Assembly: GCF_002283555.1 (NCBI RefSeq) | Contig: NZ_MVOI01000007.1 | Location: forward strand, 62,001-126,000 | Direction: 5' to 3' | Length of the DNA stretch: 64,000 nt | DNA from: Rubrivirga sp. SAORIC476 | GTDB lineage: Bacteria > Bacteroidota > Rhodothermia > Rhodothermales > Rubricoccaceae | Part shown: positions 31,662 to 48,118 of the stretch, piece by piece | Position numbering within the stretch: the stretch's first letter is position 1 | Layout of the letters: every line of letters begins with the position of its first letter | Notes under the pieces: model-generated | What the model saw: only the letters and a program-made list of their open reading frames with translations | The model's database searches: none | What the model was told of the DNA's origin: nothing | Position numbers and translations under genes: made by a program

Positions 31662-31716
31662 CTGCCCTGACCGGCCGCGCTGGCGGTTTCCGTCCACCGT
31701 CCCCCACCACCCCTCG

Positions 31717-32346
31717 ATGATCGCCACGTCCCCCCTCCCCGTCCGTTCCCGGACGCTCCGCACCGAGGCCGACGCCCAGCGCGCCGTCTACGCCGACCTC
31801 CGCATGATCGCCCGGAGGCTCCGCTCGCGCGAGAGCCCGGGGATGACGCTCGCCACGACGGGCCTCGTCCACGAGGCGTACCTCGCGCTCCAGCGCGGGT
31901 CGGCCCGCGAGGCCAGCGACATCGCCCGGGGCGCGGGCGTCCCCCTCGGGCTCTACGCCCGGGCCATGCGGAACGTGCTGGTGAGCGCGGCCCGGAAGCG
32001 GGGCGCCGACAAGCGCGGGGGCGGGGTCCGGGCTCTCCAGCTCCACGACCACGACGTCCGCGCCGGTGCGGACCCGACCGGCGTCGAGGGGTGGGCGCAC
32101 CTCGCCGTCGACCTCGACCGGGCGATGGACCGGCTCCAGCGCGCCGGGGAGCGGCTCCACCGCGTCGTCGAGCTCAAGTTCTTCGCCGGGCTCGAGATCA
32201 CCGAGATCGCGGCGGTCACGGGCACGAGCCCGGCGACCGTCAAGCGCGACTGGGAGAAGGCCCGCGCGCTGCTCTACGCCTACGTCGCGGAGGGGGAGCC
32301 GTCCGAGCCGGTGCAGCCAGAGAGCGTCCGCTCCCAAGCGCCATGA
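31717..32346 (+). CDS. ECF sigma factor of the ECF_SF (TIGR02999-like) group
   Basis: Encodes 209 residues. Region 2 runs around VYADLRMIARRLRSRESPGMTLATTGLVHEAYLAL, with the R-R-x-R and L-V-H-E-A-Y-L signature of the ECF_SF group, and region 4 is HRVVELKFFAGLEITEIAAVTGTSPATVKRDWEKARALL. Members of this group are usually encoded beside a serine/threonine kinase, and phosphorylation rather than a membrane anti-sigma factor is the proposed switch. Here the stop overlaps the kinase start (ATGA). The pair lies between a LexA-like repressor and the partition genes and may control element transcription. Confidence 0.88.
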   Translation: MIATSPLPVRSRTLRTEADAQRAVYADLRMIARRLRSRESPGMTLATTGLVHEAYLALQRGSAREASDIARGAGVPLGLYARAMRNVLVSAARKRGADKRGGGVRALQLHDHDVRAGADPTGVEGWAHLAVDLDRAMDRLQRAGERLHRVVELKFFAGLEITEIAAVTGTSPATVKRDWEKARALLYAYVAEGEPSEPVQPESVRSQAP

Positions 32347-33575
32347 GCCCGCTCCCCGCCTCCAGCCCGGACGGTGGGGAGGCCACCGGCGGGCACCCGA
32401 CGAACGGCGCGACGCACCCCCCAGGCGCCGCTCTGCGCGCGCGACTGCGGGAAGCCCAGAGGGGGGACCCGGCGTTCGCGGCGGTCCGCGCCGACGGGGT
32501 CCTCCTCGACCTCCTGCTCGACGCCGGGCCATCGGGTCGCGCCCACGTCGTCGCTCTCGTCCGCGAGCACGCGTCGGAGTACGCCGAACGGGCCGAGACG
32601 CTGGCCCTCGCCGTCGGGGCCGCGCCAGAGGCCGGCTTCCTCACGCGCCCCGCCGCCGAGACGTTCGCGGCGCACGTCGCCGACCCCGCCCTCGCACCAG
32701 GGGATACCATCGGGGAGTACCGGGTGGTCCATGAGATCGGGCGCGGGGGGATGGGCGTCGTCTACCTCGCCGAGCGCCCCGACGTGGGGCTCCGCGCCGC
32801 GCTCAAGGTGCTCGCCGGCCCCGTCGCGAGCGACGACGCCCCCGACCCCGACTTCGCGCGGTTCTGTGAGGAGCGGAGGCACCTCGCGCGCTTCGCCCAC
32901 CCGGGCGTGGCCCGGCTCTACGACGCCGGCCGCACCGACGACGGGCGGCCGTTCTTCGCGATGGAGCACGTCGAGGGCGAGCCGGTCACGGCCTACGCCG
33001 ACCGCCGTCGCCTCGGGCTCCGCGATCGGGCCGAGCTGTTCCTCCAGCTCTGCGACGCCGTCCGACACGTCCACGGGCGGGGGGTCGTCCACGGCGACGT
33101 GAAGCCCGACAACGTGCTCGTGGCCGACGACGACGACGGACGCCCCGTCGCGAAGCTGCTCGACTTCGGGGTGGCGGCGCGATGGCGGGGTGGCCGAGAC
33201 GCGCCGGCCCCTCCCCTGCCCCACCGGCCGTTCACCTACGCCTACACCGCCCCGGAGCTCGTGGCCGGGGGCGCTCCTACGCCCACGTCCGACGTGTACG
33301 CGCTCGGCGTCGTGCTCCGCGACCTTCTCGCCGGTGCTCTCGCGTCGCGGGACGGACTCCGTTCGCGGCTCGAAGCGCTCGCCCGGCGGGCTGCGAGCCC
33401 CGACGTCGGGCGGCGACCGGCGACGGCCGTGGACCTCCTGGCCGAGGTCCGCGCCGCACTCCGCGTCGAGACGCCGCGCCGGGCGGAGGCCCTCGCCCGT
33501 CCGACCCTGTTCGCGCTCGTGGCCGCGTCGGCGCTCGCTGCGGCCGTGGTCGCCCGCGCGGTGGGCCGGAGCTAG
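32343..33575 (+). CDS. Hanks-type serine/threonine protein kinase with C-terminal membrane helix
   Basis: Encodes 410 residues. Kinase landmarks are the Gly loop GRGGMG (133-138), Lys155 in AALKVL, the catalytic loop HGDVKPDN (250-257) and DFG (274-276). The Arg of the usual H-R-D is replaced by Gly251, as in many kinases of this ECF-linked type. Residues 1-120 are a helical N-terminal region, probably sigma-interacting. One membrane helix near the C-terminus (LFALVAASALAAAVVARAV, about 388-406) leaves almost nothing outside, unlike PknB-type receptors. Its ATG overlaps the sigma-factor stop. It most likely phosphorylates that sigma factor (family inference). Confidence 0.88.
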   Translation: MSPLPASSPDGGEATGGHPTNGATHPPGAALRARLREAQRGDPAFAAVRADGVLLDLLLDAGPSGRAHVVALVREHASEYAERAETLALAVGAAPEAGFLTRPAAETFAAHVADPALAPGDTIGEYRVVHEIGRGGMGVVYLAERPDVGLRAALKVLAGPVASDDAPDPDFARFCEERRHLARFAHPGVARLYDAGRTDDGRPFFAMEHVEGEPVTAYADRRRLGLRDRAELFLQLCDAVRHVHGRGVVHGDVKPDNVLVADDDDGRPVAKLLDFGVAARWRGGRDAPAPPLPHRPFTYAYTAPELVAGGAPTPTSDVYALGVVLRDLLAGALASRDGLRSRLEALARRAASPDVGRRPATAVDLLAEVRAALRVETPRRAEALARPTLFALVAASALAAAVVARAVGRS

Positions 33576-33997
33576 CGACCGCGGCGGTTCCCGAAGTGGC
33601 GGGCCTCGAGGGCGAACCCCCCTCCCCTGCTCCGCTCGGCCTCCTCGATGTGGCGCTGGAGCGCCTCCTGGACGAAGTCGTTCTGGCTCGCGCCGCCCTC
33701 CTCGGCCGCCGCGCGGACCTTCGCGCGCATCCACGCCGGGACGTTCCAGTTGCCCTGGACCGTCCGCTCGTAGGCGTCGTCGCCGGGGGCGGGCGCCTCG
33801 GGGCGCTGGACCGGCTTGGCCGGGCCGACGCCCGGGGCCTTCGCGGTGCGTTTCCGCTTGGCCTTGGGCTCCGGGCTCTCCGTCTCGGCGGACGGCGCCT
33901 CTACGGGCGGGGTGGCCGCGCCGAAGGCGCCATCGAAGGCGGTCCCCTCGGTCGTGGCCGGGCCGATGTTGAGGCGGGGTTTGCGGGACTTCGCCAT
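33572..33997 (-). CDS. Ribbon-helix-helix DNA-binding protein, candidate ParB/omega-type partition protein
   Basis: Encodes 141 residues. Residues 1-75 are disordered and Lys/Arg/Pro-rich. Residues about 82-125 fit a ribbon-helix-helix fold: strand ERTVQGNWNVP, helix AWMRAKVRAAAEEGG, turn, helix SQNDFVQEALQRHIEEAE. ParG and omega proteins have the same plan, with a flexible N-terminal tail that stimulates ParA and an RHH that binds short tandem repeats. It is directly downstream of parA in the same orientation. Four CTAG heptads lie 5 bp before its start codon. Identification as partition protein is inference from fold, neighbour and repeats. Confidence 0.7.
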   Translation of the reverse strand: MAKSRKPRLNIGPATTEGTAFDGAFGAATPPVEAPSAETESPEPKAKRKRTAKAPGVGPAKPVQRPEAPAPGDDAYERTVQGNWNVPAWMRAKVRAAAEEGGASQNDFVQEALQRHIEEAERSRGGGFALEARHFGNRRGR

Positions 33998-34002
33998 GGG
34001 TA

Positions 34003-34030
34003 CTAGGATCTAGATGCTAGGGGCTAGGCT
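34003..34030. promoter_or_regulatory. CTAG heptad array A (4 units) before the RHH gene
   Basis: CTAG occurs at 34003, 34010, 34017 and 34024, exactly 7 bp apart, each with three variable bases (ggat, atg, ggg, ct pattern). The array lies between the parA stop (34035) and the RHH start codon (33997). It is a probable operator for the RHH gene and a binding cluster for its product. Confidence 0.75.
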
Positions 34031-34034
34031 CGGA

Positions 34035-34820
34035 TCAGACGATCCGGGGCGACGGGCGGGCCTCGATCTCGTCCGCCAGCGCGGCGTAGTCCTGCGCGGC
34101 CGTGGACGAGCGGTCGTAGAACGGGAGCGGGACGCGGGCCATCTCGGACTCCCGCACGCGGACGGTCTCGCGGATATAGGTCTTGAGCCCCCCCTCCCCG
34201 TCCGGCCCCGTCGCTTGCTGGGCCACGTACTCGGCGAGGTCGAGGTCGTGGTGGCTCGACACGTTGACGCGGGTCGCGAAGGCGCCCGAGACCGGCGTCG
34301 TCCCGAACCGCTTCGAGAGCTCGACGACGTCGACGAGCCCGTCGAGCGCGCCGCGTCCGGAGGCCACGGGGACGTAGACCTCGTCGGCCGATGCGAGCGT
34401 GGCCGTCACGAGCGCCGACGCCTGCGGGGGCGAGTCGATGACGACGAAGTCGTAGTCGGCCTCGACGGCGTCGAGCAGCGCCACGAGCCGGTTGGCGAGC
34501 CGCGCGACGGCCTGGCCCTCGAACTGGACGAGCTGGCGGCTGGCCGGGACGAGGTGGAGGGCGCCCCCGTTCTCGGCGAGCGCGTCGTCCCAGAGCCCCT
34601 CGGGCCGGAGCACGGCGGCCTCGGCCTCGACCTCGCCCTTGAGGTACCGGGCCGCCGCGTGGGACGGGTCGAGCCCGGCCGACTTCGTGAGCGTGGCCTG
34701 GGGGTCGAGGTCGACGAGGAGGACGCGGCGGCCCCGGCGGGCCAGCTCGGCGCCGACGGCGAGCGAGGAGGTCGTCTTGGACGAGCCGCCCTTGAGGTTG
34801 CTGAAGGCGATGACGCGCAC
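34035..34820 (-). CDS. parA: ParA-family partition ATPase (short, type Ib-like)
   Basis: Encodes 261 residues. The deviant Walker A motif KGGSSKTTSS starts at residue 10 with the signature Lys, and Walker A' (VLLVDLDPQATLT) and Walker B (YDFVVIDSPPQA) are present. There is no N-terminal helix-turn-helix, so this is the short ParA type that pairs with RHH proteins such as ParG or omega. These ATPases position plasmids on the nucleoid. The GTG at 34820 is the only start giving the family N-terminus MRVIAFSNLKGG. It is followed by the RHH gene and preceded by the largest heptad array, which fits a parS site. Confidence 0.93.
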   Translation of the reverse strand: MRVIAFSNLKGGSSKTTSSLAVGAELARRGRRVLLVDLDPQATLTKSAGLDPSHAAARYLKGEVEAEAAVLRPEGLWDDALAENGGALHLVPASRQLVQFEGQAVARLANRLVALLDAVEADYDFVVIDSPPQASALVTATLASADEVYVPVASGRGALDGLVDVVELSKRFGTTPVSGAFATRVNVSSHHDLDLAEYVAQQATGPDGEGGLKTYIRETVRVRESEMARVPLPFYDRSSTAAQDYAALADEIEARPSPRIV

Positions 34821-34840
34821 GGCGGGGAAGGGGGGAGAGT

Positions 34841-34903
34841 CTAGCGCCTAGATACTACCGACTAGCCCCTACTGTCGAGAGGCTAGGTTCTAGACTCTAG
34901 TTC
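34841..34903. promoter_or_regulatory. CTAG heptad array B (9 units), candidate centromere/parS and parA operator
   Basis: Nine consecutive 7-bp units start at 34841, 34848, 34855, 34862, 34869, 34876, 34883, 34890 and 34897. Six begin CTAG, two CTAC and one CGAG. The array ends 20 bp before the parA start. Length, uninterrupted 7-bp period and location match the heptad centromeres of omega-type RHH partition systems, with a different core sequence. Confidence 0.8.
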
Positions 34904-34965
34904 GTGGTTCGCCCCGAATGAGCTCCCGGCGTGTCTAAGCGCGCTACCCAGTCGCAATCGGATGT

Positions 34966-34979
34966 CTAGAACCTAGATG
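34966..34979. promoter_or_regulatory. CTAG heptad pair C over the traF start codon
   Basis: CTAG at 34966 and 34973, 7 bp apart, followed in phase by a degenerate CCAG at 34980. The ATG of traF (34977) lies inside the second unit, so binding here would block transcription or initiation of the transfer genes. Confidence 0.65.
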
Positions 34980-35570
34980 CCAGGACAGCAAGACGCTCCC
35001 CAGGGGCCCGTCCGTTCCACAGAGAGGCGGTCCCCCGGGCGGTTGGGCATCCGACTCGTCGCGGCGTCAGCCGTCGCGTTCGGTGCGGTGGCGGTGGCCG
35101 CCGGTCTCGGGGTCCGCGTCAACACGACGCCGAGCCTGCCGCGCGGCCTCTACCTCGCGGGACCGTTGGACGCCGGCGGGGTGGAGAGGGGGGAGCTCGT
35201 CTCGGCGTGCCCCGACACGGCCGCCATCCGCCGCCTCGGGCGGTACTGGACGAACGGACGGTGCCCCGGCGGCGAGGGCCGCCCGGAGGGCGTGCGGCCC
35301 CTGGCGAAGCCCGTCGCGGGAGTCCCGGGCGACACCATCCGCGTCGACAGCTCGGGCGTCTGGGTCGGGGGGAGGCCCCTCCCGTCCAGCGCGCCGCTCT
35401 TCCGGGACCGCGCGGGCCGGCCCGTCCGTCCCGCGCTCGGGGTCCACGTCCTCGGCCGGGGGGAGTACTGGCTCCACTCCGGCCGCGTCGCGACGTCGAT
35501 CGACTCCCGGTACGTCGGCCCCGTCCGTGTCGTCCTGGAGCGCGTGCGCCCGCTGTGGACGGAGGATTAG
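34977..35570 (+). CDS. traF: TraF-type S26 signal peptidase of conjugation
   Basis: Encodes 197 residues. A membrane helix (LVAASAVAFGAVAVAAGLG) is followed by NTTPSLPRGLY, with nucleophile Ser53, and PLAKPVAGVPGDTI, with general base Lys111; S-x-x-x-G and K-x-x-x-G-x-P-G-D are the S26 catalytic boxes. Short length and two cysteines (ACPD, RCPGG) fit TraF of IncP plasmids, which trims and cyclises the TrbC pilin. The pilin gene lies 1.3 kb downstream. A pair of CTAG heptads covers the start. Confidence 0.85.
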   Translation: MPGQQDAPQGPVRSTERRSPGRLGIRLVAASAVAFGAVAVAAGLGVRVNTTPSLPRGLYLAGPLDAGGVERGELVSACPDTAAIRRLGRYWTNGRCPGGEGRPEGVRPLAKPVAGVPGDTIRVDSSGVWVGGRPLPSSAPLFRDRAGRPVRPALGVHVLGRGEYWLHSGRVATSIDSRYVGPVRVVLERVRPLWTED

Positions 35571-35596
35571 CGGTGTACGACGCCGAGCGGGCCGCT

Positions 35597-35624
35597 CTAG
35601 CCCATAGACTCTAGACCCTAGCTC
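35597..35624. promoter_or_regulatory. CTAG heptad array D (4 units) upstream of trbB
   Basis: Units start at 35597 (CTAG), 35604 (ATAG), 35611 (CTAG) and 35618 (CTAG). After the array an ATG at 35630 opens a six-codon frame (M-S-R-G-V-P) whose stop overlaps a GTG, so a leader peptide before trbB is possible. Confidence 0.7.
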
Positions 35625-35749
35625 CGACCATGAGCCGTGGCGTCCCGTGAGCGCGCTTTCCTCGTCGGACCCGCCCGTGCCGCTCTCCGAACGAGGTGAC
35701 AGCCCGGTGCTCGCGGCGGAGTGCGGGTCCCCACCTTCCGAGCCGACCC

Positions 35750-36769
35750 GTGACCCCGACGCCCGCCCCGGCAGCCCCGACGACCGCCCCAGGGAGCGGG
35801 GCGGACGGTGGCCGCGAGGTCCGCTACCGCGAGCTCATGGAGCGGTACCTCGGCCCCCGCGTCGTCGAGGCGTTCGCCGACGACGACGTGACCGAGGTGT
35901 ACGTCAACGGCGACGGGCGCCTCCGGCTCGACACCCACTCGCGCGGCAAGGTGCTCGCGGGCGTCCGGCTCCGCGCGGCCCGCGTCGAGCAGTTCCTCCA
36001 CGCCGTCGCCGCCTTCCACGGCGACGCGCTCCATGGGGGCACGCCGTCCGTCCAGGCCGAGCTCCCCGTCGAGACGTTCGGGGGCGCCCGGCTCCAGGGG
36101 TTCCTCTCGCCGCTCGCGGAGGCGTCGTGCTTCGTGATCCGGAAGCGGGCCTCGCGCGTGTTCGACCTCGACAGCTACGTCGAGACCGGCGTGATGACGG
36201 CGCGGCAGCGGGCCGCGCTCGGCGACGCCGTCCGGGACCACGAGAACGTCCTCGTCTGCGGTGGGACCGGGTCGGGCAAGACGACGCTCTGCAACGCGCT
36301 CCTGAAGGAGATGACCGACCAGTTCCCCGAGGAGAGGATCGTCGTCCTTGAGGACACGGGCGAGCTCCAGTGCGCGGCCGACGACCACCTCCAGCTCCGG
36401 ACGTCCGACGGCACCGGCAGAGGTGCCGGTGTCTCGCTCGCCGACCTCGTGCGGCACACGCTCCGCTGCACGCCCGACCGGATCGTCGTCGGCGAGGTCC
36501 GCGACGAGGCCGCGCTCCACCTGCTCGACGCCTGGGCGACGGGGCACCCCGGCGGGTGCGCGACGCTCCACGCCACGACGGCGCTCGGCGCGCTCCACCG
36601 GCTGGGGCGGCTCGCGCAGCGGGCGAACGTGCCGCCCCAGCACGAGCTGGTCGCCGAGGCCGTCGGGGTCGTCCTCGTGATCCAGGGCGGCAACCAGGGC
36701 CGCCGCGTGACCGAGCTCGTCCGCGTCGAGGGCCAGCACGCCGGGACGTACGAGCTGGCGCCCGTCTGA
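35750..36769 (+). CDS. trbB: TrbB/VirB11-type secretion ATPase
   Basis: Encodes 339 residues from the GTG at 35750; a GTG at 35696 would add 18 residues of low-complexity sequence. The start of homology is YRELMERYLGPRVVEAF with DDDVTEVYVNGDGRL, as in TrbB. Walker A is CGGTGSGKTTLCNAL (about residue 170), the Asp box is VVLEDTGELQ, Walker B is RIVVGEVRDEAALHLL and the His box is GGCATLHATTALG. Hexameric TrbB powers pilus assembly at the inner membrane. It heads the trb gene order B, C, D, E, J, K-like, L, F, G, I. Array D lies 125 bp upstream. Confidence 0.93.
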   Translation: MTPTPAPAAPTTAPGSGADGGREVRYRELMERYLGPRVVEAFADDDVTEVYVNGDGRLRLDTHSRGKVLAGVRLRAARVEQFLHAVAAFHGDALHGGTPSVQAELPVETFGGARLQGFLSPLAEASCFVIRKRASRVFDLDSYVETGVMTARQRAALGDAVRDHENVLVCGGTGSGKTTLCNALLKEMTDQFPEERIVVLEDTGELQCAADDHLQLRTSDGTGRGAGVSLADLVRHTLRCTPDRIVVGEVRDEAALHLLDAWATGHPGGCATLHATTALGALHRLGRLAQRANVPPQHELVAEAVGVVLVIQGGNQGRRVTELVRVEGQHAGTYELAPV

Positions 36770-36922: not shown

Positions 36923-37258
36923 ATGCACCGCCTTCAGTCCACTGCCCACCGCCGCGTCCTCGTCGGCCGCGCGCTCGCGCTCCTCGCCCTCGCCGCCGTC
37001 CTCGCCGACCCCGCCGCGGCCTCGGGCGGCGCGGCCATGCCGTGGGACGGACCGCTCCAGACCATCGCCGACGCCCTCACCGGCAACACGATCCGGCTCG
37101 TGGCCGTGATCGCGCTCGCCGCCGGCGGCATCGTCTGGGCGTTCACCAAGAACGAGGAGGGCGTCAAGCGGATCGGCCAGGCCGTGCTCGGCCTCGGCGT
37201 CGCCATCGGGGCCGCCTCGTTCGCGGCCACGCTCGGCATTTCGGGCTCGACGTTTTGA
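36923..37258 (+). CDS. trbC: TrbC/VirB2-type conjugative pilin
   Basis: Encodes 111 residues. A signal peptide (LALLALAAVLADPAAASGG) precedes the mature pilin, which has two hydrophobic helices: NTIRLVAVIALAAGGIVWAF and AVLGLGVAIGAASFAATLG, separated by a short charged loop (TKNEEGVKRIGQ). This is the TrbC/VirB2 topology, and the presence of TraF predicts head-to-tail cyclisation. The stop codon overlaps the TTG start of trbD. The 150-bp gap before it carries one copy of the CGCCAGAGGC 10-mer. Confidence 0.88.
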   Translation: MHRLQSTAHRRVLVGRALALLALAAVLADPAAASGGAAMPWDGPLQTIADALTGNTIRLVAVIALAAGGIVWAFTKNEEGVKRIGQAVLGLGVAIGAASFAATLGISGSTF

Positions 37259-37645: not shown

Positions 37646-40252
37646 ATGAGCCTGATCGCCGCCGCCGCTGGCCTCGCCGCCGGGACGCTCGGGGCCGCCG
37701 GTCTCGGTCGGCTCCGCGAGTACCGCGCCCGACCCCGCGCGCTCTCCGACCTCCTCGGCTGGGGGTTCCTGGTGGGGGAGGGGGTCGTGCTGATGAAGGA
37801 CGGCTCGTTCCTGGCCGCCTACCGCGTCCGCGGCCGCGACCTCGCCTCCTCGACCGCGGGGGAGGTCGCAGCACTCGCGGGCCACGTCGGCGCTGCGCTC
37901 GCGGCCTACGGCGACGGGTGGATGGTCCACGCCGACGCCGTCCGCCGCGAGGCCGTCGGCTACGCGCCGCCCGAGCGCTGCCACTTCCCCGACCCCGTGA
38001 GCGCGCTCCTCGACGAGACGCGCCGCGCGCGGTACACGGCGACCGCCGAGCACTACGAGACCGAGGCCGTCCTCTCGCTCACCTACACGCCGCCGCCCGG
38101 CCTGGTGGGGCGGCTCCAGAAGGCCGTCGTCGCGGGCCGTGGCGAGGGCGCCGGCATCGACTGGGACCTGCTCCTCGGCCAGTTCGAGCGGGAGGCGCGC
38201 GGGCTCCGCGACCGGCTCTCGTCGGCCATGAAGGTCGAGCGGCTCGGGAGCGCGGACCTGCTCCGCCACCTCCACGAGAGCCTGACGGGGCTTCCCCACG
38301 CCGTCGGCGTGCCGGGCCACGGGGCCTACCTCGACTACGCGCTCGCCGACCAGCCGTTCGTCGGCGGGTTCGAGCCGCGCGTGGGCGCGAAGCACGTCCG
38401 CGTCGTGGCCGTCCAGGGCTACCCGAACGCGACGCGCCCCGGCCTCGCCGACCCGCTCACGCGGCTGCCGTTCCCGTACCGCTGGTCGGTCCGGTTCCTC
38501 CCGTTCTCGCCCGCGACGGCGACGAAGGTGATCGGGAAGGCCCAGCTCGGGTGGTTCCAGAAACGGCGCGGCGCGGGCGACTGGGTCCGCGACATGGCCT
38601 CGAAGGAGAAGCGCCAGGAGACCGAGATGGACCTCGCCTTCCAGGACGCCAACGCGAGCCAGATGGTGCTCGACGCCGGGGCCGCGCGGGCCTCGAACAC
38701 GGGCGGCGAGCTCCGCTTCGGGCACCTCACGGCCTGCGCCGTCGTGATGGCGGACGACGCCCGCTCGGCGAACGAGCGCGCCGCTTCGCTCCTCAAGGCC
38801 GTCCGCGACCTCGGGTTCACGGGCCGCGTCGAGGACGTGAACGCCGTCGACGCCTTCCTCGGGAGCCTCCCAGGCCACGGCCACGCCAACCTCCGCCGCC
38901 CCGTTCTGTCGACGGACAACCTCGTCGACGTGCTCCCGCTCACGGCGCCCTGGGGCGGACACCGCGAGGTCCCGAGCGGGCTCTTCCCGCCGCACTCGCC
39001 CCCTCTCCTGTGGGCCAAGACCGACGGCTCGACGCCGTTCCGGCTCTGCCTCCACGAGGGCGACGTCGGCCACACGCTCGTCGTCGGCGCGACGGGCGCG
39101 GGCAAGTCGGTGCTCGTCGGGCTCCTGCTCGCGCAGTGGCGTCGCTACGACGGGGCGCGGACGGTCACGTTCGACGTCGGCTACAGCCACTACGTCTCGG
39201 GCCGCGCGATGGGCGCGGCGCACTATGACCTCGCCGGACCGCTGGCGGCGGGGGGGCCCGTCGAGATGCAGCCGCTCCGCGACGTGGACCGGCCCGAGGT
39301 GCGGACGTGGGCGGTCGACTGGGTCGAGTCGCTCGTCGAGCTCCAGGGCGAGCGGTTGTCGCCCGACGAGCGGGGCCGCTTGGCGCACGCCGTCTGCCTG
39401 CTGGCGGAGAGCCCGCCTGAGGACCGGACGCTGACGGCGCTCCTGGTCGGGCTGGGGTCCGAGCGGCTGAGGGCGCTCGTGCGGCCCTACACGCTGGAGG
39501 GGCCGTACGGCCAGCTCTTCGACGCCGACTGCGACTCGTTCGGGTCCGCCAGCGGACCCGGCGGGCAGGGTGGGGGAGAGGTCCGGCACCAGGTCGTCGA
39601 ACTCTCGCACCTCGTCGGGATGTCCGACCGCGTGCTGGTGCCTGCGCTGACGTACCTGTTCCGCCGCGTCGAGGAGGGCCTGAACGGTTCGCCGACGCTC
39701 ATCGTGATCGAGGAGGCCTGGGCGGCCCTCATGCACGGCCGCTTCGCCGACCGACTCCGCCAGTGGCTCCTGACCCTCCGCAAGCGGAACGCGGCCGTCG
39801 TCGTCGTGGCCCACAGCCCCGCCCAGTTCCGCGACCCCGGCGTCAAGGGCGCGCAGCTCCTCGTCGAGAGCTGCCCGACGCGGATCTTCCTCCCGAACCC
39901 CGACGCCGCCGAGCCCGACACGGCCGCGCTCTACCGCTGGCTGGGGCTGAACGAGGCCGAGGTCGCCCGGCTCGCGAGGGCGCGGAAGAAGCGGGACTAC
40001 TACGTCCGCTCGCCGTCGGGGGCGCGGACGTTCGACCTGGCGCTGGGGCCGCTGGAGATGGCCTTTCTCGGCACGCTCCCCGGCCGCTCGGCCGACGAGA
40101 CCGTCCGGGAGGCCGCGCGGCTGGCGGAGGCCGAGGGCGAGCGGTGGCCGGCCACGTGGCTCCGGCTCTGCGGACTCGAGGTCGAGGCCGACGCGCTCGC
40201 ATCCTCGCTCCGGGGCGAGGGTTCCGACGTGCCCCCTCAGAGCTTGCCGTAG
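37646..40252 (+). CDS. trbE: TrbE/VirB4-type conjugative ATPase
   Basis: Encodes 868 residues, the usual length for TrbE. Two short hydrophobic segments lie near the N-terminus (LIAAAAGLAAGTLGAAGLG). Walker A is VVGATGAGKSVLVGLLLAQW near residue 482 and Walker B is SPTLIVIEEAWAALMHGRFA near 680, followed by FLPNPDAAEPDTAALYRWLGL, a conserved VirB4/TrbE C-terminal block. It is the largest motor of the type IV secretion channel. A DUF4143 ATPase gene is inserted before trbJ. Confidence 0.94.
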   Translation: MSLIAAAAGLAAGTLGAAGLGRLREYRARPRALSDLLGWGFLVGEGVVLMKDGSFLAAYRVRGRDLASSTAGEVAALAGHVGAALAAYGDGWMVHADAVRREAVGYAPPERCHFPDPVSALLDETRRARYTATAEHYETEAVLSLTYTPPPGLVGRLQKAVVAGRGEGAGIDWDLLLGQFEREARGLRDRLSSAMKVERLGSADLLRHLHESLTGLPHAVGVPGHGAYLDYALADQPFVGGFEPRVGAKHVRVVAVQGYPNATRPGLADPLTRLPFPYRWSVRFLPFSPATATKVIGKAQLGWFQKRRGAGDWVRDMASKEKRQETEMDLAFQDANASQMVLDAGAARASNTGGELRFGHLTACAVVMADDARSANERAASLLKAVRDLGFTGRVEDVNAVDAFLGSLPGHGHANLRRPVLSTDNLVDVLPLTAPWGGHREVPSGLFPPHSPPLLWAKTDGSTPFRLCLHEGDVGHTLVVGATGAGKSVLVGLLLAQWRRYDGARTVTFDVGYSHYVSGRAMGAAHYDLAGPLAAGGPVEMQPLRDVDRPEVRTWAVDWVESLVELQGERLSPDERGRLAHAVCLLAESPPEDRTLTALLVGLGSERLRALVRPYTLEGPYGQLFDADCDSFGSASGPGGQGGGEVRHQVVELSHLVGMSDRVLVPALTYLFRRVEEGLNGSPTLIVIEEAWAALMHGRFADRLRQWLLTLRKRNAAVVVVAHSPAQFRDPGVKGAQLLVESCPTRIFLPNPDAAEPDTAALYRWLGLNEAEVARLARARKKRDYYVRSPSGARTFDLALGPLEMAFLGTLPGRSADETVREAARLAEAEGERWPATWLRLCGLEVEADALASSLRGEGSDVPPQSLP

Positions 40253-40290: not shown

Positions 40291-40340
40291 TCCACCGCTG
40301 GGCGGTGGAAAATCAACCATCCACTGGTGGATATTCCACC
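40291..40340 (+). promoter_or_regulatory. TCCACC palindromes before the DUF4143 ATPase gene
   Basis: The first dyad, tccaccgc/gcggtgga with a 3-bp loop, spans 40291-40309. The second, tccactggtgga, spans 40320-40331. A further half-site, ttccacc, ends at 40340, directly before the ATG at 40341. The set looks like an autoregulatory operator or the boundary of an inserted gene cassette. Confidence 0.55.
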
Positions 40341-41576: not shown

Positions 41577-41653
41577 GAGGGGAGGGGTGAGCCGCCAGAG
41601 GCTCGGACCGCGCTCTCGGGGTGACGCCCTTTCCACGAGACGCCCCCAGCCAC

Positions 41654-42436
41654 ATGCTCCGGCTCAGCCTCCCCCTCCGCATCGCCCGCATCCGCACCGC
41701 GCGGTCCCCCCGCTTCCGCCTGCCGCGCTCGTTCGGTCTCGCGGCGCTCCTGGCCTTGGTCGCCTTCGCGCCCACGCAGGAAGCGAAGGCGCAGTGGGCC
41801 GTGATCGACCCGGCCCACATCGCGAAGTCGATCTACAACGGGCGCCAGATCCTCCAGCAGCTCCGGGCGCAGCGCGACCAGCTCGTCGCCTTCCGCGAGA
41901 ACGTCCGCAAGCTCCGGAGCTACAACGTCCGCGACGTGGGCGGGCTCATCGACCAGTTCGACCGGACGATCGTCTCGGGCGGCCAGCTCGCCTACACCTC
42001 GGCCGACCTCGCGCGGGAATTCGACGAGACCTACCGCTCGTTCGACGTGAACGACCCCGCGGGCGAGGCCCGGCGCGTGCTGGAGGACCGGCTCTCGGGC
42101 TCGCTCAACACGCTCCGGGCACTCCGCGAGCACGCGACCCAGCTCCAGACGTCGCGGCGTGACCTCCAGGGGTTCCAGTCCCAGATCCGCGCGGCCACGA
42201 CGGCCCAGCAGATCGCCGAGCTCCAGGGGACCGTCCAGGCGTACCAGGCGCAGGAGACCCAGATGCTCCGGCAGGTCGTGATGCTCCAGGCCGACCAGGC
42301 GGCGCAGTCCGACGCTCGCGAGGCGGCCGTCCGGGCCTACGCCCGCGAGGTCGGTCGGGCGCAGTCGGCGCGGAGCCGGGACTACGCGCGCCGGATGGGC
42401 GGGCGGGACTACGGGAGCCGCCCAGTCATCGACTGA
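41654..42436 (+). CDS. trbJ: TrbJ/VirB5-like T4SS protein
   Basis: Encodes 260 residues. A long basic N-terminus leads into a signal peptide (SFGLAALLALVAFAPTQEAKAQ), then WAVIDPAHIAKSIYNGRQILQQL, the hallmark TrbJ opening. The rest is coiled-coil rich (QLRAQRDQLVAFRENVRKL, AQQIAELQGTVQAYQAQE). TrbJ is a periplasmic or pilus-tip protein of the VirB5 group needed for pilus assembly. I chose the ATG at 41654; a GTG at 41621 is possible. A hairpin follows the stop. Confidence 0.88.
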   Translation: MLRLSLPLRIARIRTARSPRFRLPRSFGLAALLALVAFAPTQEAKAQWAVIDPAHIAKSIYNGRQILQQLRAQRDQLVAFRENVRKLRSYNVRDVGGLIDQFDRTIVSGGQLAYTSADLAREFDETYRSFDVNDPAGEARRVLEDRLSGSLNTLRALREHATQLQTSRRDLQGFQSQIRAATTAQQIAELQGTVQAYQAQETQMLRQVVMLQADQAAQSDAREAAVRAYAREVGRAQSARSRDYARRMGGRDYGSRPVID

Positions 42437-42448
42437 TCGCCCCGGGTC

Positions 42449-42471
42449 CGGTGACGGGAGGGCCGTCACCG
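42449..42471 (+). terminator. Hairpin between trbJ and the trbK-slot lipoprotein
   Basis: cggtgacgg at 42449-42457 and ccgtcaccg at 42463-42471 form a perfect 9-bp stem with a 5-nt loop, 13 bp after the trbJ stop. No T-run follows, so it could be an attenuator or an mRNA-stability element that changes the ratio of upstream and downstream products. Confidence 0.5.
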
Positions 42472-42521
42472 CTGGCGTCTAGCGTCGGCGGCGGTGGCCC
42501 TCCCATTTCCCTGACCGACCC

Positions 42522-43001
42522 ATGACCCGCCCCGCCTTGCTGTCCGTCCTCGTCCTCCTGATCTCTGCCGGTTGCGGCTCCGGCGACGCGCCCGAGGCGG
42601 TCGCGCCAGAGGCTCCAACGGTGCCGAGCGCGGTCGCATACCTCCAGGCGTGCGTCGACGACGCACCAGACGAGCCGTGCCCCCCAAACCCCGACGCGGA
42701 TGCGGCCTACTGGACGGTCCAGCAGGAGGCCCAGAGCGAGAGCTACCTCGACGCAGCGGAGCTCTGCCTCCGTGCGGCCCTCGAGAGCCAGAAGGCGGGC
42801 CGCGAGGGCGCCTGCGTCGACGTGTACGAGGCCTACGTCACCGAGGGCGTCCGCTCCGACCTCGGCGGCCGACTCGACGAGTCCGAGGCCCGGCGTGGCT
42901 ACGCGAAGGCGCGGATCGCACTCCAGCGCCAGCGGAGCCAGACGTTCATCGACGGGATGCGCGCCGAGCCCGGCCGTGACGTCCCCCAGTCCATCGAGTA
43001 G
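42522..43001 (+). CDS. Lipoprotein in the trbK position, candidate entry-exclusion protein
   Basis: Encodes 159 residues. MTRPALLSVLVLLISAGCGS is a lipoprotein signal with lipobox S-A-G-C. The mature part is acidic with four cysteines (LQACVDDAPDEPC, AELCLRAAL, GACVDVYEAY) and a helical second half. No sequence family is recognised. In Ti/IncP-type operons the gene between trbJ and trbL is trbK, a small lipoprotein that blocks entry of a second copy. Position, lipidation and lack of conservation fit an entry-exclusion role, although RP4 TrbK is much shorter. Function is inferred from order only. Confidence 0.6.
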   Translation: MTRPALLSVLVLLISAGCGSGDAPEAVAPEAPTVPSAVAYLQACVDDAPDEPCPPNPDADAAYWTVQQEAQSESYLDAAELCLRAALESQKAGREGACVDVYEAYVTEGVRSDLGGRLDESEARRGYAKARIALQRQRSQTFIDGMRAEPGRDVPQSIE

Positions 43002-43004
43002 CCC

Positions 43005-43949
43005 GTGACGCCCCTCCACCTCCGCGACGCCCACCGCCAGAGGCTCTTCGCACGCCGAGCCCTCGGAGGGGCCGGTCTCGCCGCGCTGGTGGTCGTCCTC
43101 GCGCCGGAGGCCAGCGCCCAGTCTCCGCCGCCGGAGGTGCTCGACACCATCGTCGAGGACTTCCGCACCGCGGCCGACAACGCGCGCCCGGCGCTCCTCG
43201 CCATCGCGCGGGGGACGTTCGGGGTCCTTGCCGTAATCGAGATCGCGCTAAGCGGGCTCTACTGGACGCTCCGCGCTGAGGGGCCGTACAAGGTGCTCAC
43301 CGGGCTCGTCGTCAAGCTGGGGTGGCTCGCGTTCGCCTTCGGGCTCATCGCGACGTTCGACGTCTGGTTCCCGCCGGTCATCAACGGGTTCCTCGCGGCG
43401 GGGCAGTCGGCGTCGCCAGGCACGTTCAGCCCGGGCGAGGTGCTCGGCCTGGGCGTCGAGATCTCGACCTCGATGGTGAACGCGATGTTCGAGGACCTCT
43501 CGATCCTCGACGTCGACGGCCCGACGCTCACGAACATCGTCCTGGTCGCGATCGCGGCGCTCGTGATGGAGATTCTTTTCGCCGTCATCGCGGGGATGGT
43601 CGTACTCGTACTCGTCGAGTCGTTCCTCGTCCTCGCGTGCGGGTCGCTGGTGCTCGGGTTCGCCGCGTTCCGGGGGACGGCCTCGCTCGCAGACCGGTTC
43701 GTGGCCTACGTGTTCTCGGTCGGGATCAAGCTGTTCGTGCTCTTCCTGCTGGTCTCGGTTGGGATGGACGTCGCCGACGCTTGGCTCCCCATCATCCAGT
43801 CGAACCCGGGGACGGTCGCGCCGATGCTGGCGGTCCTGGGCGGGGCGATCACGTTCGCCCTGCTCGTGATCGTGCTGCCGTCGAAGGCGGCCTCGTTCCT
43901 CACGCGCGACTTCCAGCCCGGCTTCGTCCGCGCGCTCCAAGCCGTGTAG
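43005..43949 (+). CDS. trbL: TrbL/VirB6-type T4SS channel protein
   Basis: Encodes 314 residues. A signal-like helix (GGAGLAALVVVLAPEASA) is followed by DTIVEDFRTAADNARPAL and about six membrane segments, including LAVIEIALSGLYWTL, NIVLVAIAALVMEILFAVI and MLAVLGGAITFALLVIVLP. This is the VirB6/TrbL layout of polytopic inner-membrane channel components. The GTG at 43005 is 3 bp after the lipoprotein stop, so translation is coupled. A 7-bp-stem hairpin follows. Confidence 0.88.
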   Translation: MTPLHLRDAHRQRLFARRALGGAGLAALVVVLAPEASAQSPPPEVLDTIVEDFRTAADNARPALLAIARGTFGVLAVIEIALSGLYWTLRAEGPYKVLTGLVVKLGWLAFAFGLIATFDVWFPPVINGFLAAGQSASPGTFSPGEVLGLGVEISTSMVNAMFEDLSILDVDGPTLTNIVLVAIAALVMEILFAVIAGMVVLVLVESFLVLACGSLVLGFAAFRGTASLADRFVAYVFSVGIKLFVLFLLVSVGMDVADAWLPIIQSNPGTVAPMLAVLGGAITFALLVIVLPSKAASFLTRDFQPGFVRALQAV

Positions 43950-43954
43950 CGCTT

Positions 43955-43987
43955 CGGTCTCCCGGACGGCCTGGGGTTCAGAGACCG
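43955..43987 (+). terminator. Inverted repeat after trbL
   Basis: cggtctc at 43955-43961 and gagaccg at 43981-43987 form a perfect 7-bp dyad with a 19-nt loop, 5 bp after the trbL stop. It separates the trbB-L block from the XRE regulator and the trbF-I block. It could be a partial terminator. Confidence 0.35.
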
Positions 43988-44049
43988 CAGCGCCGGAATG
44001 GGTCATAGAGTACGTGGACACCGGCTGTCCGCACGGGGAAGTTGGCCCC

Positions 44050-44400
44050 ATGCCCGACTCCCCCGACCTCTCGTTCCCCTTCGGTCCCCAGCCGACCGAG
44101 ATCCTGGGCCGCCTGGCCCGAGTTCGGCGGCTCGCCCTCGGACTGGCTCCGGAGGACGTGGCCGAACGGTGCGGGCTCGAGTGGACGTACGTGCTGGAGC
44201 TCGAACGTGGGGTCGCGGACCCCGAGCTCGACATCTTCCTCCTGTGGGCGCGGGGGCTCGACCTCGACCCCGTCGAGCTGATGCGCCAGGCGAACGCGAT
44301 CCTTCTGGAGGAGAACGCCTGGTACGCCGAGGCCGTCCGCCGAGGCGACATGTCCTGGTCGGAAGGGGAGGCCCCAGGGGACGGACCGGCTTCGAGGTAG
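44050..44400 (+). CDS. Small XRE-type helix-turn-helix regulator inside the trb operon
   Basis: Encodes 116 residues. The DNA-binding region is ILGRLARVRRLALGLAPEDVAERCGLEWTYVLELERGV (about residues 20-58), a Cro/C1-type helix-turn-helix, then a short helical C-terminus with an acidic/aromatic segment (LLEENAWYAEAVRRGDMSW). The ATG at 44050 is preferred over a GTG at 44014. It lies between trbL and trbF, where no regulator is normally found. Directly after its stop are three 15-bp direct repeats that could be its operator, implying local control of trbF, trbG, trbI and traG. Confidence 0.75.
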   Translation: MPDSPDLSFPFGPQPTEILGRLARVRRLALGLAPEDVAERCGLEWTYVLELERGVADPELDIFLLWARGLDLDPVELMRQANAILLEENAWYAEAVRRGDMSWSEGEAPGDGPASR

Positions 44401-44402
44401 CC

Positions 44403-44455
44403 CGCCCGTTACGCTGATCGGCGTAACGCTGATCTACGTAACGCGCGAACGGGCG
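44403..44455. promoter_or_regulatory. Three 15-bp direct repeats within an inverted repeat, before trbF
   Basis: gttacgctgatcggc (44408), gtaacgctgatctac (44423) and gtaacgcgcgaacgg (44438) are tandem with an exact 15-bp period. They are enclosed by cgcccgtt at 44403-44410 and aacgggcg at 44448-44455, a perfect 8-bp inverted repeat. The cluster starts 3 bp after the XRE gene stop and about 70 bp before the trbF start. Confidence 0.65.
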
Positions 44456-44526
44456 GCCCTTCTGCCGTTGTGAGCCTCGGACGTGCGAAGCTGCGCTCAG
44501 GGGAGGGAACGCCTCCCTGACCGTCC

Positions 44527-45411
44527 GTGCCCTTCCCGAGCCTCCGCCGCCCCCCGTCCTCGAACGGGGCCGCCCCGCCGTCCGAGCGGACGAAGCCGAA
44601 GGGCTGGGACTACGGCGCGAAGGAGTCGCCCGAGGTGTTGCGCGGCCGGTACGAGTTCCACCGCGCGTTCTCCGACCTCGCGAAGGGGAAGCGGAACTGG
44701 CAGGTCGCCGCCTTCTTCGCTTTCGCCGTCCTCGCGCTCGCCGTCGCAGGGCTGGTGACGCTCGCGGCCCAAAGCCGGGTCGTCCCCTACGTCGTCGAGG
44801 TCGACCGGCTCGGCCGGGCCTCGGCCATCGCGCCCGCCGAGGCGGTCCCGGCCGTGGCCGACCGCGTCGTCATCGCGGCGCTCTCGGCGTTCGTCACGAA
44901 CATCCGGACGGTCTATGCCGACCCCGTCGCGCAGCGCGACGCCGTCTACCGGGCCTACGCCTACGTCGGCGGCGACGCGCGGGCGTTCCTGGAGGGCTAC
45001 TTCTCCGACCCACAGAACGACCCACGCCGCCTCGGCAAGGGCGCGCGGCGGAGCGTCGAGGTCGTCGCCGTGCTCCCCGTGCCGGGGACGGCGGCGGACG
45101 GCGCGCGGACGTACCGCGTGACGTGGAACGAGACCGAGTCGTCGCCCCAGCGCGGCGACACCGAGCGGGCGTGGGAGGGCTACCTCTCGGTCGTGGTCGC
45201 CCCGCCGACGACGACGGAGGGCGTCGAGCGGAACCCGCTCGGCGTGTTCGTGACCGACCTCTCGTGGAGCCCGCTCGCGGGCACCGGCGAGCCGGACGAG
45301 GCCGACGAGCCTGTGGACGACGCCCCTCCCGCCGAGAGCCGCCAGCCCGACGAGCCCACGCCGAGGGGCGTGCTCGCGCAGCCCCAGCCCGCCGATTCGA
45401 CGCAGCCGTAG
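44527..45411 (+). CDS. trbF: TrbF/VirB8-type T4SS protein
   Basis: Encodes 294 residues from a GTG. A polar N-terminus (GWDYGAKESPEVLRGRYEF) leads to one membrane helix (VAAFFAFAVLALAVAGLVTL) and the VirB8 periplasmic domain: VVPYVVEVDRLGRASAIAPA, NIRTVYADPVAQRDAVYRAY and YRVTWNETE. A Pro/Glu-rich tail of about 50 residues extends the usual length. VirB8 proteins nucleate the inner-membrane complex. It is followed by heptad array F and trbG. Confidence 0.9.
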   Translation: MPFPSLRRPPSSNGAAPPSERTKPKGWDYGAKESPEVLRGRYEFHRAFSDLAKGKRNWQVAAFFAFAVLALAVAGLVTLAAQSRVVPYVVEVDRLGRASAIAPAEAVPAVADRVVIAALSAFVTNIRTVYADPVAQRDAVYRAYAYVGGDARAFLEGYFSDPQNDPRRLGKGARRSVEVVAVLPVPGTAADGARTYRVTWNETESSPQRGDTERAWEGYLSVVVAPPTTTEGVERNPLGVFVTDLSWSPLAGTGEPDEADEPVDDAPPAESRQPDEPTPRGVLAQPQPADSTQP

Positions 45412-45415
45412 TCGT

Positions 45416-45436
45416 CTAGCGTCTAGACCCTAGCCC
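45416..45436. promoter_or_regulatory. CTAG heptad array F (3 units) before trbG
   Basis: CTAG at 45416, 45423 and 45430, 7 bp apart. The array starts 5 bp after the trbF stop and ends 8 bp before the trbG ATG (45445), again in the ribosome-binding position. Confidence 0.7.
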
Positions 45437-45444
45437 ACCCGACC

Positions 45445-46503
45445 ATGCGATTCATCCCATTCGCCCTCGCGCTCCTCCTCACCGCATCCGCCTCGGCCCA
45501 GTCCGCGCCCGACCCGCCAGAGGCCCAGACCATAGTGGACCTCGCCCGCGCCTCTGGCGAAGTCGAGGCGACCGAGCTCCCGGTCGGCCGCCCCGTGGGT
45601 GACGGGTTCGACGGCGGCGCCGTCGTCGTGACGGCGGGGGAGATGGAGGAGGCGCTCGGCGAGCTCGTCCGCGAATACCAGCGGACCGGACGCGCCCGCG
45701 TGCTCCGCCAGTCGGCCGTGTGGGTGTTCCCGTTCGGCCACACCCAGCCCGTGCTCGCGTGCGCCCCGCTCCGGGCGTCGGTCGTCGAGCTCGAAGAGGG
45801 CGAGACCGTGCTCGGGGTCGTCGCTGGCGACACCGAGCGGTTCGCGGTCGACCTCGCGGCCACGGGCCGCTCGGGGCGGACGCCGCTCGTGGTCGTGAAG
45901 CCCCTTCAATACGACGTGACGACGAACCTCGTGGTCTCGACCGACCGTCGGGTCTACCACGTCACGCTCGACTCGGCGCCACGCCCGAGCCGTGCGTCGG
46001 GTACCCGACGCGGCGGGGAGGACCTCAACCCCCAGACCCGCTACGCCCGCCACGTCCGGTTCTACTACCCCGACGACGCGCTGGCAGCCCTCGCGACCGA
46101 GGCCGCGACGGGCGCGGCGGCAATCCGACCGACGGTGGCCTCTGGCGACGACGAAGCGGTCTCGCTTGACGACCTCACGTTCGCCTACGAGTGGTCCGGT
46201 GACCCCGTGCTCCGCGAGCGCGTCGCGCGGGTCTTCGACGACGGCGCGCACACCTACGTCCAGCTCGCCCGCGGGCGGAGCGGGGAGGCCCCTGTGCTCT
46301 ACGCCATCGGGCCGGACGGCTCGCGCGAGGTGCTCAACTACGCTTACCGCCCCGGCCGCGGCGGCGCCGGGACCTACGTGGCCGACCGCGTCCTCGACCG
46401 GGCCGACCTCGTGCTCGGGGCGACGGTGAAGAAGGGGCCATTCGGGCTCTTCGGCCGCCGCCAGATCGAGCGGGCCGTCCGCATCGCCCGCGTCTCTCGC
46501 TAA
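45445..46503 (+). CDS. trbG: TrbG/VirB9-type T4SS outer complex protein
   Basis: Encodes 352 residues. A Sec signal (FIPFALALLLTASASAQ) precedes a beta-rich domain. TrbG/VirB9 features include FPFGHTQPVLACAPLRASV, VKPLQYDVTTNLVVSTDRRVYHV near 150 and RHVRFYYPDDALA, followed by the C-terminal LFGRRQIERAVRI. It forms the outer-membrane core complex with TrbI; no separate trbH lipoprotein is present. It lies between trbF and trbI in the standard order. Confidence 0.92.
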   Translation: MRFIPFALALLLTASASAQSAPDPPEAQTIVDLARASGEVEATELPVGRPVGDGFDGGAVVVTAGEMEEALGELVREYQRTGRARVLRQSAVWVFPFGHTQPVLACAPLRASVVELEEGETVLGVVAGDTERFAVDLAATGRSGRTPLVVVKPLQYDVTTNLVVSTDRRVYHVTLDSAPRPSRASGTRRGGEDLNPQTRYARHVRFYYPDDALAALATEAATGAAAIRPTVASGDDEAVSLDDLTFAYEWSGDPVLRERVARVFDDGAHTYVQLARGRSGEAPVLYAIGPDGSREVLNYAYRPGRGGAGTYVADRVLDRADLVLGATVKKGPFGLFGRRQIERAVRIARVSR

Positions 46504-46521
46504 CCGAAGCTCCCCGCCCCG

Positions 46522-48117
46522 ATGGCCCACGACCCCTTCGACGACCTGGACGGCGCCTCTGACGAGCCGCCCCGCCACCCCGACCTCTCCGAGTTCGAGC
46601 TGAGCGCCGAGACGCCAGAGGCCGACGTGCCTCTGGCGAACGCCTCGCTCGCAGACGAGCCGTTCTCGTTCGACGACGAGCCCGCGGACGCCCCGCGCGG
46701 CGACCTCCTCGCGGGGACCGACGACGGCCGCTACGAGCCAGTCCGTGTCAACCGCCGCCTGGTGCTCGGCGGGCTCCTCATCGCGGGCGCCGCCGTACTC
46801 CTGGGCCTCCTGGTGTTCTCGGGCGACTCGGACTCCGCCGAGCGCGACGTCGCCGGCGTCGAGCGCCCCGAGGCGGCCCCGCCCGACTTCCTCGAACGAG
46901 GAGGAGACGACCTGTACGCCCTCGACGGCGACCCAACGGCCCCAGCCCCTGAGGTCTACGCGGCCGACCCCTACGCCGACCCGTACAGGCCGTCCTACGC
47001 CGCGCCCGCCTACACACCGGACTACAGGACGTCGTCGGTTGGCCCCACCGCGTCGCCGTCCTACAGCGCGTCTCCCCAGCCGGTGGCCGCTCGCGAGGAG
47101 CGCGTGACGCCGGAGGCCGACGCCTTCGCGCGGGCGCTGGCCTCGCCGGTCGTCGCGCGGACGGGCGCGCTCACGCTCGGTCCGGGCGCGGCACCCGTCG
47201 ACGACCCGGACGCGGTCCGGCTCGACCCCGAGCTCCAGCGCGAGGTCGACGAGATCCGGCTCATCGCCCAGCAACTCGCGCCCGCCGCCAGCGGCCCGCC
47301 GGTCCCGAGCCAGCCGACGGCACAGGCCGTCGCCCTGCCGCCTCTCGCGGCTCCTGTGCCCCAGGGGCGTGGCGCGGTAAGCCCGGGTCCCGACACCCGC
47401 CGCGCGTTCGCGGAGCGCACCTCGGCGCTCGGGGAGGGCCGCTACGGCGTCCGCGTCCAGGTGCCCGAGACCCCGTTCGTGCTCCAGGCCGGGACCATCA
47501 TCCCGGCCGCGCTCGTGACCGGGATCGACTCCGAGTTGCCCGGCGCCGTCGTCGGCCAGGTCACGCGCGACGTGTACGACAGCCGGAGCCAGTACCACGT
47601 CTTGGTCCCGAAGGGGAGCCGCCTCATCGGCGAGTACGACGACCAGATCGCGTACGGCCAGAACCGGGCGCTCGTAGCCTGGACGCGGATCGTCTTCCCC
47701 GACGGCCGCTCGGTCGCGCTCCCCGGCCTCGACGCGAAGGACCTCCGGGGCTACTCCGGGCTCCGCGGCCGCGTGGACCGCCACTTCGCGCAGACGTTCG
47801 GGTCGGCCGTGTTGCTGGCGACGGTCGGGGCGGGCGCCCAGCTCGCGCTGCCCGACGGCGGCGGTGAGGACTTCGCGCAGAGCCCGCAGGAGGTGATCGC
47901 GGGCCAGATCGCCCTCGAGCTCTCGCGCGTGGCCTCGAAGATCGTCGAGCGCGGCCTCGACGTGCAGCCGACGCTCCGGATCTCGCCGGGCCACCGGTTC
48001 ACGGTCTTCCTCGCGCGCGACCTCGCGTTTGCGGCGCCGTACCGGACGGCACCGGCCGAGCCCCGGTTCACGCGTCCCCCCACGCCGCGCGCGCCGCACG
48101 GAGGGGCGGGTCGGTAG
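46522..48117 (+). CDS. trbI: TrbI/VirB10-type T4SS protein
   Basis: Encodes 531 residues. A long acidic cytoplasmic N-terminus precedes one membrane helix (RLVLGGLLIAGAAVLLGLLVF, about residues 77-97). A Pro/Ala/Tyr-rich periplasmic linker follows, then the VirB10 C-terminal beta-barrel domain with VLQAGTIIPAALVTGIDSEL, VYDSRSQYHVLVPKGSRLIG and RIVFPDGRSVALPGLDAKD. These are canonical TrbI blocks. It spans both membranes and links the motor to the outer complex. It ends 1 bp before the traG start. Confidence 0.93.
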   Translation: MAHDPFDDLDGASDEPPRHPDLSEFELSAETPEADVPLANASLADEPFSFDDEPADAPRGDLLAGTDDGRYEPVRVNRRLVLGGLLIAGAAVLLGLLVFSGDSDSAERDVAGVERPEAAPPDFLERGGDDLYALDGDPTAPAPEVYAADPYADPYRPSYAAPAYTPDYRTSSVGPTASPSYSASPQPVAAREERVTPEADAFARALASPVVARTGALTLGPGAAPVDDPDAVRLDPELQREVDEIRLIAQQLAPAASGPPVPSQPTAQAVALPPLAAPVPQGRGAVSPGPDTRRAFAERTSALGEGRYGVRVQVPETPFVLQAGTIIPAALVTGIDSELPGAVVGQVTRDVYDSRSQYHVLVPKGSRLIGEYDDQIAYGQNRALVAWTRIVFPDGRSVALPGLDAKDLRGYSGLRGRVDRHFAQTFGSAVLLATVGAGAQLALPDGGGEDFAQSPQEVIAGQIALELSRVASKIVERGLDVQPTLRISPGHRFTVFLARDLAFAAPYRTAPAEPRFTRPPTPRAPHGGAGR

Positions 48118-48118
48118 C

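Follow-up and report, generated by a model that had tools for sequence, protein, structure and literature searches.

Gene content of the locus and its host plasmid

The window, by which we mean the whole 64-kb stretch of DNA analyzed, corresponds to bases 62001–126000 of contig C7 (138,760 bp) in a 4.48-Mb Rhodothermales genome. Within it, a gene for a ParA-type ATPase lies adjacent to a small gene for a ribbon-helix-helix (RHH) protein. The gene order runs LexA-like regulator, ECF sigma factor, kinase, RHH and parA (minus strand), then traF, trbB, trbC, trbE, trbJ, trbK-like, trbL, trbF, trbG, trbI and traG. The genes from the RHH gene onward are as follows:

33572..33997, minus strand: ORF for the RHH protein (141 aa), the proposed centromere-binding protein and repressor
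34035..34820, minus strand: ParA-family ATPase (261 aa; Pfam AAA_31, 4.9e-33; Walker A KGGSSKTT)
34977..35570, plus strand: traF, conjugative transfer signal peptidase (S26) (TIGR02771, 2.6e-24, under the curated cut-off; Pfam S26)
35696..36769, plus strand: trbB/virB11 ATPase (Pfam T2SSE, 2.2e-34; start codon uncertain)
36923..37258, plus strand: trbC/virB2 pilin (Pfam TrbC, 6e-19)
37646..40252, plus strand: trbE/virB4 ATPase (Pfam CagE_TrbE_VirB and TraG P-loop)
41621..45411, plus strand: trbJ, trbK-like, trbL, an HTH gene and trbF (Pfam T4SS, TrbL, HTH and VirB8)
45445..49996, plus strand: trbG, trbI and the traG coupling protein (Pfam CagX, TrbI and T4SS-DNA_transf)

The contig carries Rep3, a relaxase, NikA/MobC and a Trb-type type IV secretion system (T4SS). 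The replication initiator was recognized through its relative in another genome, G046 (C7:840-1973 is a relative of the G046 Rep3 protein), and the relaxase and NikA/MobC protein lie near the opposite end of C7. A plasmid host is supported by an initiator, a relaxase and a T4SS on one contig, and by gene content C7 is a conjugative plasmid and presumably a low-copy replicon. Because relaxase and rep genes adjoin in G046, C7 is naturally read as a circle, a conjugative plasmid whose sequence was opened between these two genes; a comparison of its two ends found no overlap. Its cargo includes an RND efflux operon. The trbE product is 91% identical to its relatives over most of its length, and no Pfam match was obtained for the trbK-like protein. 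In most copies of the cluster, a block of LexA-like S24 regulator, ECF sigma factor and Ser/Thr kinase genes (31032-33575 in the window) adjoins it. Gene content varies between plasmids in the trbE-trbJ (40305-41576) and trbL-trbF (44014-44400) intervals (compare loci L024 in G046 and L027 in G033), where a DUF4143 ATPase, an HTH protein and another ATPase occur; these intervals look like insertion hot spots.

In the five aligned copies of the RHH protein from elements with 7-bp repeats (7-type), an N-terminal motif (RKPRLNIxPATTEGTAF) is conserved and is followed by a variable linker and a C-terminal ribbon-helix-helix. Family searches (Pfam/NCBIfam) returned weak RHH-like matches only. The AlphaFold model of the full-length protein was poor (pLDDT 57.7, low over the N-terminal motif and linker), and the C-terminal domain was therefore modeled by itself, giving a ribbon-helix-helix with pLDDT 83.5. 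Its matches in the PDB included Arc, CopG, ParG, omega and pCXC100 ParB, with no single best family; the omega structure 1irq (Z 5.0) was tied with many other RHH proteins. The domain model and these matches argue for the initial assignment of the small protein as RHH. At the sequence level, the RHH alignment matched no solved structure among PDB sequences, and no homologs were found in PLSDB plasmids and viral contigs. The N-terminal motif and variable linker resemble those of ParG and omega proteins in sequence layout. A lone RHH fragment on contig C14 of G046 (L040:12026-12454), which has lost its original N-terminus and has neither an adjacent ParA nor an array, is probably a decayed copy.

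The neighboring gene was likewise identified as a ParA-family ATPase, as the initial annotation had it; its nearest solved structures are Soj/ParA. Throughout the family (window 34035-34820; L035, L041, L079 and L087), the Walker A motif is without the usual glycine ahead of the lysine; its variants are KGGSSKTT, KGGSAKTT, KGGSCKTT and KGGAAKTV.

CTAG heptads at partition and transfer genes

The initial annotation described two arrays of 7-bp units, A and B, at the RHH and parA genes and noted that their CTAG core is otherwise scarce. Both arrays and the scarcity were recovered. We counted 41 CTAG in the window, compared with 153.6 expected from base composition, and 64 in the entire contig, compared with 347 expected. 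The two arrays are not the full set, as four more (C to F) lie beyond them, giving six in total, upstream of the RHH gene, parA, traF, trbB, trbE and trbG (none has an assigned strand):

34003..34030: array A, four heptads, all CTAG (CTAGGAT CTAGATG CTAGGGG CTAGGCT), with 5 bp between its end and the start codon of the RHH gene (minus strand); in the same place in four relatives
34841..34903: array B, nine contiguous heptads upstream of parA, six of them beginning with CTAG; proposed main centromere and operator
34966..34979: array C, two heptads (CTAGAAC CTAGATG) at traF
35597..35624: array D, three CTAG and one ATAG heptad (CTAGCCC ATAGACT CTAGACC CTAGCTC) upstream of trbB; present in G033 contig C26
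37618..37645: array E, three CTAG and one CTAC heptad (CTACCCC CTAGTGT CTAGACC CTAGAAC), abutting the trbE ATG; strongly conserved in G046 and G033
45416..45436: array F, three heptads (CTAGCGT CTAGACC CTAGCCC) upstream of trbG (ATG at 45445); conserved in G046 and G033

Twelve pairs of CTAG in the window had a spacing of exactly 7 bp; spacings of 4–6 and 8–13 bp did not occur. When 41 positions were drawn at random (100,000 trials), the mean number of pairs at 7 bp was 0.026 and the maximum 2; with CTAGs kept within the same intergenic DNA, these values were 0.55 and 5. The pattern CTAGN3CTAG occurred 14 times in the 4.48-Mb genome, and 12 of these occurrences fell between window positions 34003 and 45433 (11.4 kb). 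Consequently, 7-bp-spaced CTAG is not equally frequent elsewhere in the genome, the outcome that had been named in advance as speaking against a heptad centromere.

The autocorrelation of array B was z = 5.4 at lag 7 and z = -2.2 at lag 8. Among relatives, the units of this array that lack CTAG are mostly conserved as well, and this conservation suggests that they may hold the parA promoter. A promoter and terminator scan of positions 33900-35800 found none, and no sigma-70 consensus promoter was present in arrays A–D. At array C, the traF start codon forms the spacer of a CTAG heptad (CTAG-ATG), so that a bound protein would cover the start codon. The counterparts read CTAG-ATG-CTAG in G046 and G033 C44 and CTAG-GTG-CTAG, before a degenerate traF, in G050 (heptads at about 15394-15411 in L023 and about 16603-16620, minus strand, in L025). 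Overall, strong constraint was seen on the CTAG core only; the spacers are near-random with a bias at the core-adjacent bases, mostly of ACC or ACG type and mostly not AT-rich.

Strong matches to this RHH family were found in 4 of 114 genomes of the order (G000, G046, G050 and G033), with weak matches only in three more, and an evenly drawn sample of the phylum contained no member besides those in G000 and G046. Three plasmids other than that of the window carry the cluster, either largely complete or truncated at the end of a contig, with arrays at the same genes. Arrays recur before the RHH gene, parA, traF, trbB, trbE and trbG in related plasmids, while the other non-coding DNA drifts; they vary slightly among relatives, and array D is missing from G046 C14. 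The ratios of CTAG pairs at 7 and 8 bp in the five 7-type elements were 12:1, 11:2, 8:1, 5:0 and 6:0, the 8-bp pairs being single steps at an array edge or lying outside the arrays. G050 has kept parA, the RHH gene and the arrays, although its T4SS, LexA-like and ECF genes are missing or survive as fragments (L025, L035).

A sister lineage with 8-bp pitch

The 7-bp heptad, which the initial annotation took as the rule, holds within the lineage of the window; a sister lineage has CTAG as its core too, at a pitch of 8 bp. This lineage (G046 contig C15 and G050 contig C2) encodes RHH proteins 47–48% identical and ParA proteins 64–66% identical to those of the window, and its pitch is exactly 8 bp (15 + 7 = 22 pairs at 8 bp, none at 7 bp). 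The 8-type arrays precede the ECF, parA, RHH, trbB, trbE and trbF genes, largely the same regulon as that of the 7-type. Repeat pitch thus tracks the RHH/ParA lineage. In the ParA tree, the two types are sisters (support 93/98); the ancestral pitch is not settled by this tree because the outgroup branches are long. The predicted DNA-reading strands differ by one residue between pitch types (VQGNWNV and VQANWNV), and the helix-helix region differs more (AAAEEGGAS and VKDxDGTS). In RHH proteins, the helix-helix parts can contact a neighboring dimer, and a change in pitch through this region is therefore plausible.

Both pitch types were found in one genome in two cases, G046 (C14 with 7 bp, C15 with 8 bp) and G050 (C13 with 7 bp, C2 with 8 bp). 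In G046, the two contigs (90 and 65 kb) each have their own rep, relaxase and T4SS, and an identical 117 bp stands at the start and end of both, which looks like one shared assembly-graph node, arising from two circles or one cointegrate. The transfer genes of G050, which holds both types, are mostly lost. In Clostridium perfringens, the compatibility of conjugative plasmids is set by partition-protein specificity (PMC9426499). The co-residence in G046 and G050 invites the idea that pitch sets compatibility, and the sequences suggest that repeat pitch, beyond repeat sequence, may set specificity. In its full form, the idea is that the pitch of a shared CTAG core would be the identity of the centromere: a 7-bp protein could not assemble on an 8-bp array and vice versa, which would make two related conjugative plasmids compatible and keep their transfer regulons separate in one cell. 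We put this forward tentatively, and rather doubt that it holds as stated. Counting against it, G033 contains two 7-type elements (C26 and C44), from one cell or from a mixed bin.

We also compared short-repeat ParA cassettes more widely. The Salinibacter ruber plasmids pSR84 and pSR47 (L087, L088), which are classed as non-mobilizable, encode a ParA 40% identical to that of the window and a 93-aa RHH-like protein, annotated as hypothetical, with a similar tail; their arrays consist of TCAYG units at 8-bp pitch, and a replication gene adjoins. By sequence, this locus is a probable type Ib cassette. ParF-type cassettes in G066 and G067 have CTAG at 8 bp, and G071 carries two CATG arrays spaced 8-7-8, one ahead of parA and the other on the far side of the RHH gene. 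Viral contigs contained at least 128 period-7 CTAG arrays, and among those listed none had a ParA within 1.5 kb; for period-8 arrays, a ParA lay within 1.5 kb in 3 of 80. Two of these three adjoin ParA and RHH pairs (L231 and L244) on unrelated contigs, AT-rich and GC-rich. Judging from the 8-bp arrays in G066, G067, pSR84/pSR47 and the viral pairs, a tetramer plus 4 bp recurs. The 7-bp CTAG form together with ParA was seen in the lineage of the window only, among the genomes, plasmids and viral contigs compared. Arrays of CTAGGAA type in G023 were rejected as minisatellites, and an 8-bp match in G101, which adjoins a thymidine-kinase gene, was also rejected.

Proposed function and comparison with known systems

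We consider it likely that the RHH protein has two roles on this Rep3 conjugative plasmid, binding the centromere for a type Ib (ParA-RHH) partition system and acting as a repressor, and the CTAG arrays are probably docking sites for this one small plasmid-encoded protein. The initial proposal of a heptad centromere at the RHH/ParA pair pointed in the right direction, but the heptads are not confined to the par genes. Since they also precede conjugation genes, the RHH protein is probably a transfer regulator too. In the proposed mechanism, RHH dimers would sit side by side on CTAG cores at the exact 7-bp spacing. A filament on array B, and perhaps on A, would form the centromere and activate ParA via the conserved N-terminal tail, and the same filament would shut down the parA and RHH promoters. 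The arrays of two to four units before traF, trbB, trbE and trbG would have an operator role only, keeping the transfer genes at a low level and linking the dosage of the partition protein to conjugation. In pSM19035, ParA is fully activated only by runs of four or more contiguous heptads (PMC9499535). With its nine units, array B exceeds this need and by analogy qualifies as a centromere, A possibly so, and the shorter arrays as operators; at least four contiguous short repeats at the par promoter, a type Ib feature, are present in array B. Points against the proposal are the RHH protein's lack of a sequence match to a solved structure, the atypical Walker A motif, the absence of a consensus promoter in arrays A–D and the slight variation of the arrays among relatives, such as the missing D in G046 C14. 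The proposal builds on features read from sequence, namely the arrays with their restriction to one segment and their conservation, the identification of RHH and ParA, the plasmid setting and the agreement of lineage with pitch; from these we infer binding, repression, ParA activation and partition.

An alternative that we regard as unlikely takes the RHH protein for a master repressor of the par and transfer genes only, similar to ArtA, with arrays that are operators, no centromere, and a ParA that serves transfer or is partnered elsewhere. Four of the six arrays do precede transfer genes, and ArtA, itself an RHH protein, represses genes for conjugation and segregation (PMC6540685). However, the RHH and ParA genes are adjacent and have been kept together without a T4SS in G050, and they also occur together in the non-mobilizable S. 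ruber plasmids; in addition, array B is long, and activation of ParA would call for a tail like the conserved N-terminal one seen here. Binding of the heptads by another regulator of the cluster, be it the LexA-like S24 protein, the ECF sigma factor or an HTH protein, is suggested by the LexA-like, ECF and kinase genes that adjoin most copies, but appears very improbable. G050 retains arrays, parA and the RHH gene without those genes nearby, which points to the RHH protein as the ligand, and between pitch types the LexA-like proteins are 75% identical, compared with 47% for RHH. We know of no use of tandem 7-bp direct repeats by LexA-type proteins. That the arrays are neutral minisatellites without function is scarcely credible. 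Heptameric CTAG minisatellites do exist, in G023 and in numerous viral contigs; most of these repeat only one or two spacers. Here, by contrast, the spacers are diverse with CTAG alone conserved, the arrays are placed at the starts of genes, the same genes carry them in relatives, and CTAG is depleted in other places.

Returning to the RHH protein as centromere-binding protein and repressor, the arrays suggest a coupling of partition and conjugation through a single protein. Known RHH partition systems differ in the sequence of their repeats; if pitch sets specificity, it would offer a simple route for the splitting of plasmid incompatibility groups. A literature search that covered few subscription journals returned no paper combining CTAG, RHH and plasmid partition, and, in the same scope, no close RHH partition relatives that share a core and differ in pitch alone. 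The searches found no studied partition system in Rhodothermota, the group to which the cassette belongs.

In RK2/RP4, one DNA-binding protein, KorB, serves both partition and repression of transfer genes. KorB is a ParB-type HTH protein acting on isolated operators, whereas here an RHH protein would act on tandem repeats. ArtA of pSK41, an RHH protein, is a master regulator whose sites lie at genes for conjugation and for segregation, as in the present case, where repression is putative; unlike the heptads, its sites are pseudo-palindromic, and it is not described in that account as centromere-binding (PMC6540685). The ParF-ParG-parH system of TP228 has, like the present cassette, an RHH protein with an N-terminal tail, flexible in ParG and putatively so here, and tetramer boxes with spacers, plus an operator (PMC7308502); the 8-type sister likewise has a tetramer plus 4 bp. 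However, ParG boxes are degenerate with AT-rich spacers, whereas the spacers here are mostly not AT-rich; the pitch of 7 and the longer ParA (261 aa) are further differences. The delta-omega system of pSM19035 resembles the cassette in its tailed RHH protein (the tail being putative here), its small ParA and its contiguous 7-bp repeats that overlap several plasmid promoters (PMC9499535). As the initial annotation held, the heptads differ from those of omega: WATCACW is non-palindromic, whereas the CTAGNNN units here have the palindromic core CTAG. In addition, the putatively regulated genes here include a T4SS, and the RHH protein has no detectable sequence homology to solved structures. Set beside these systems, the cassette is, by its sequence features, probably a type Ib partition system with two additions: heptads before transfer genes, and a sister family that has the same core at another pitch.
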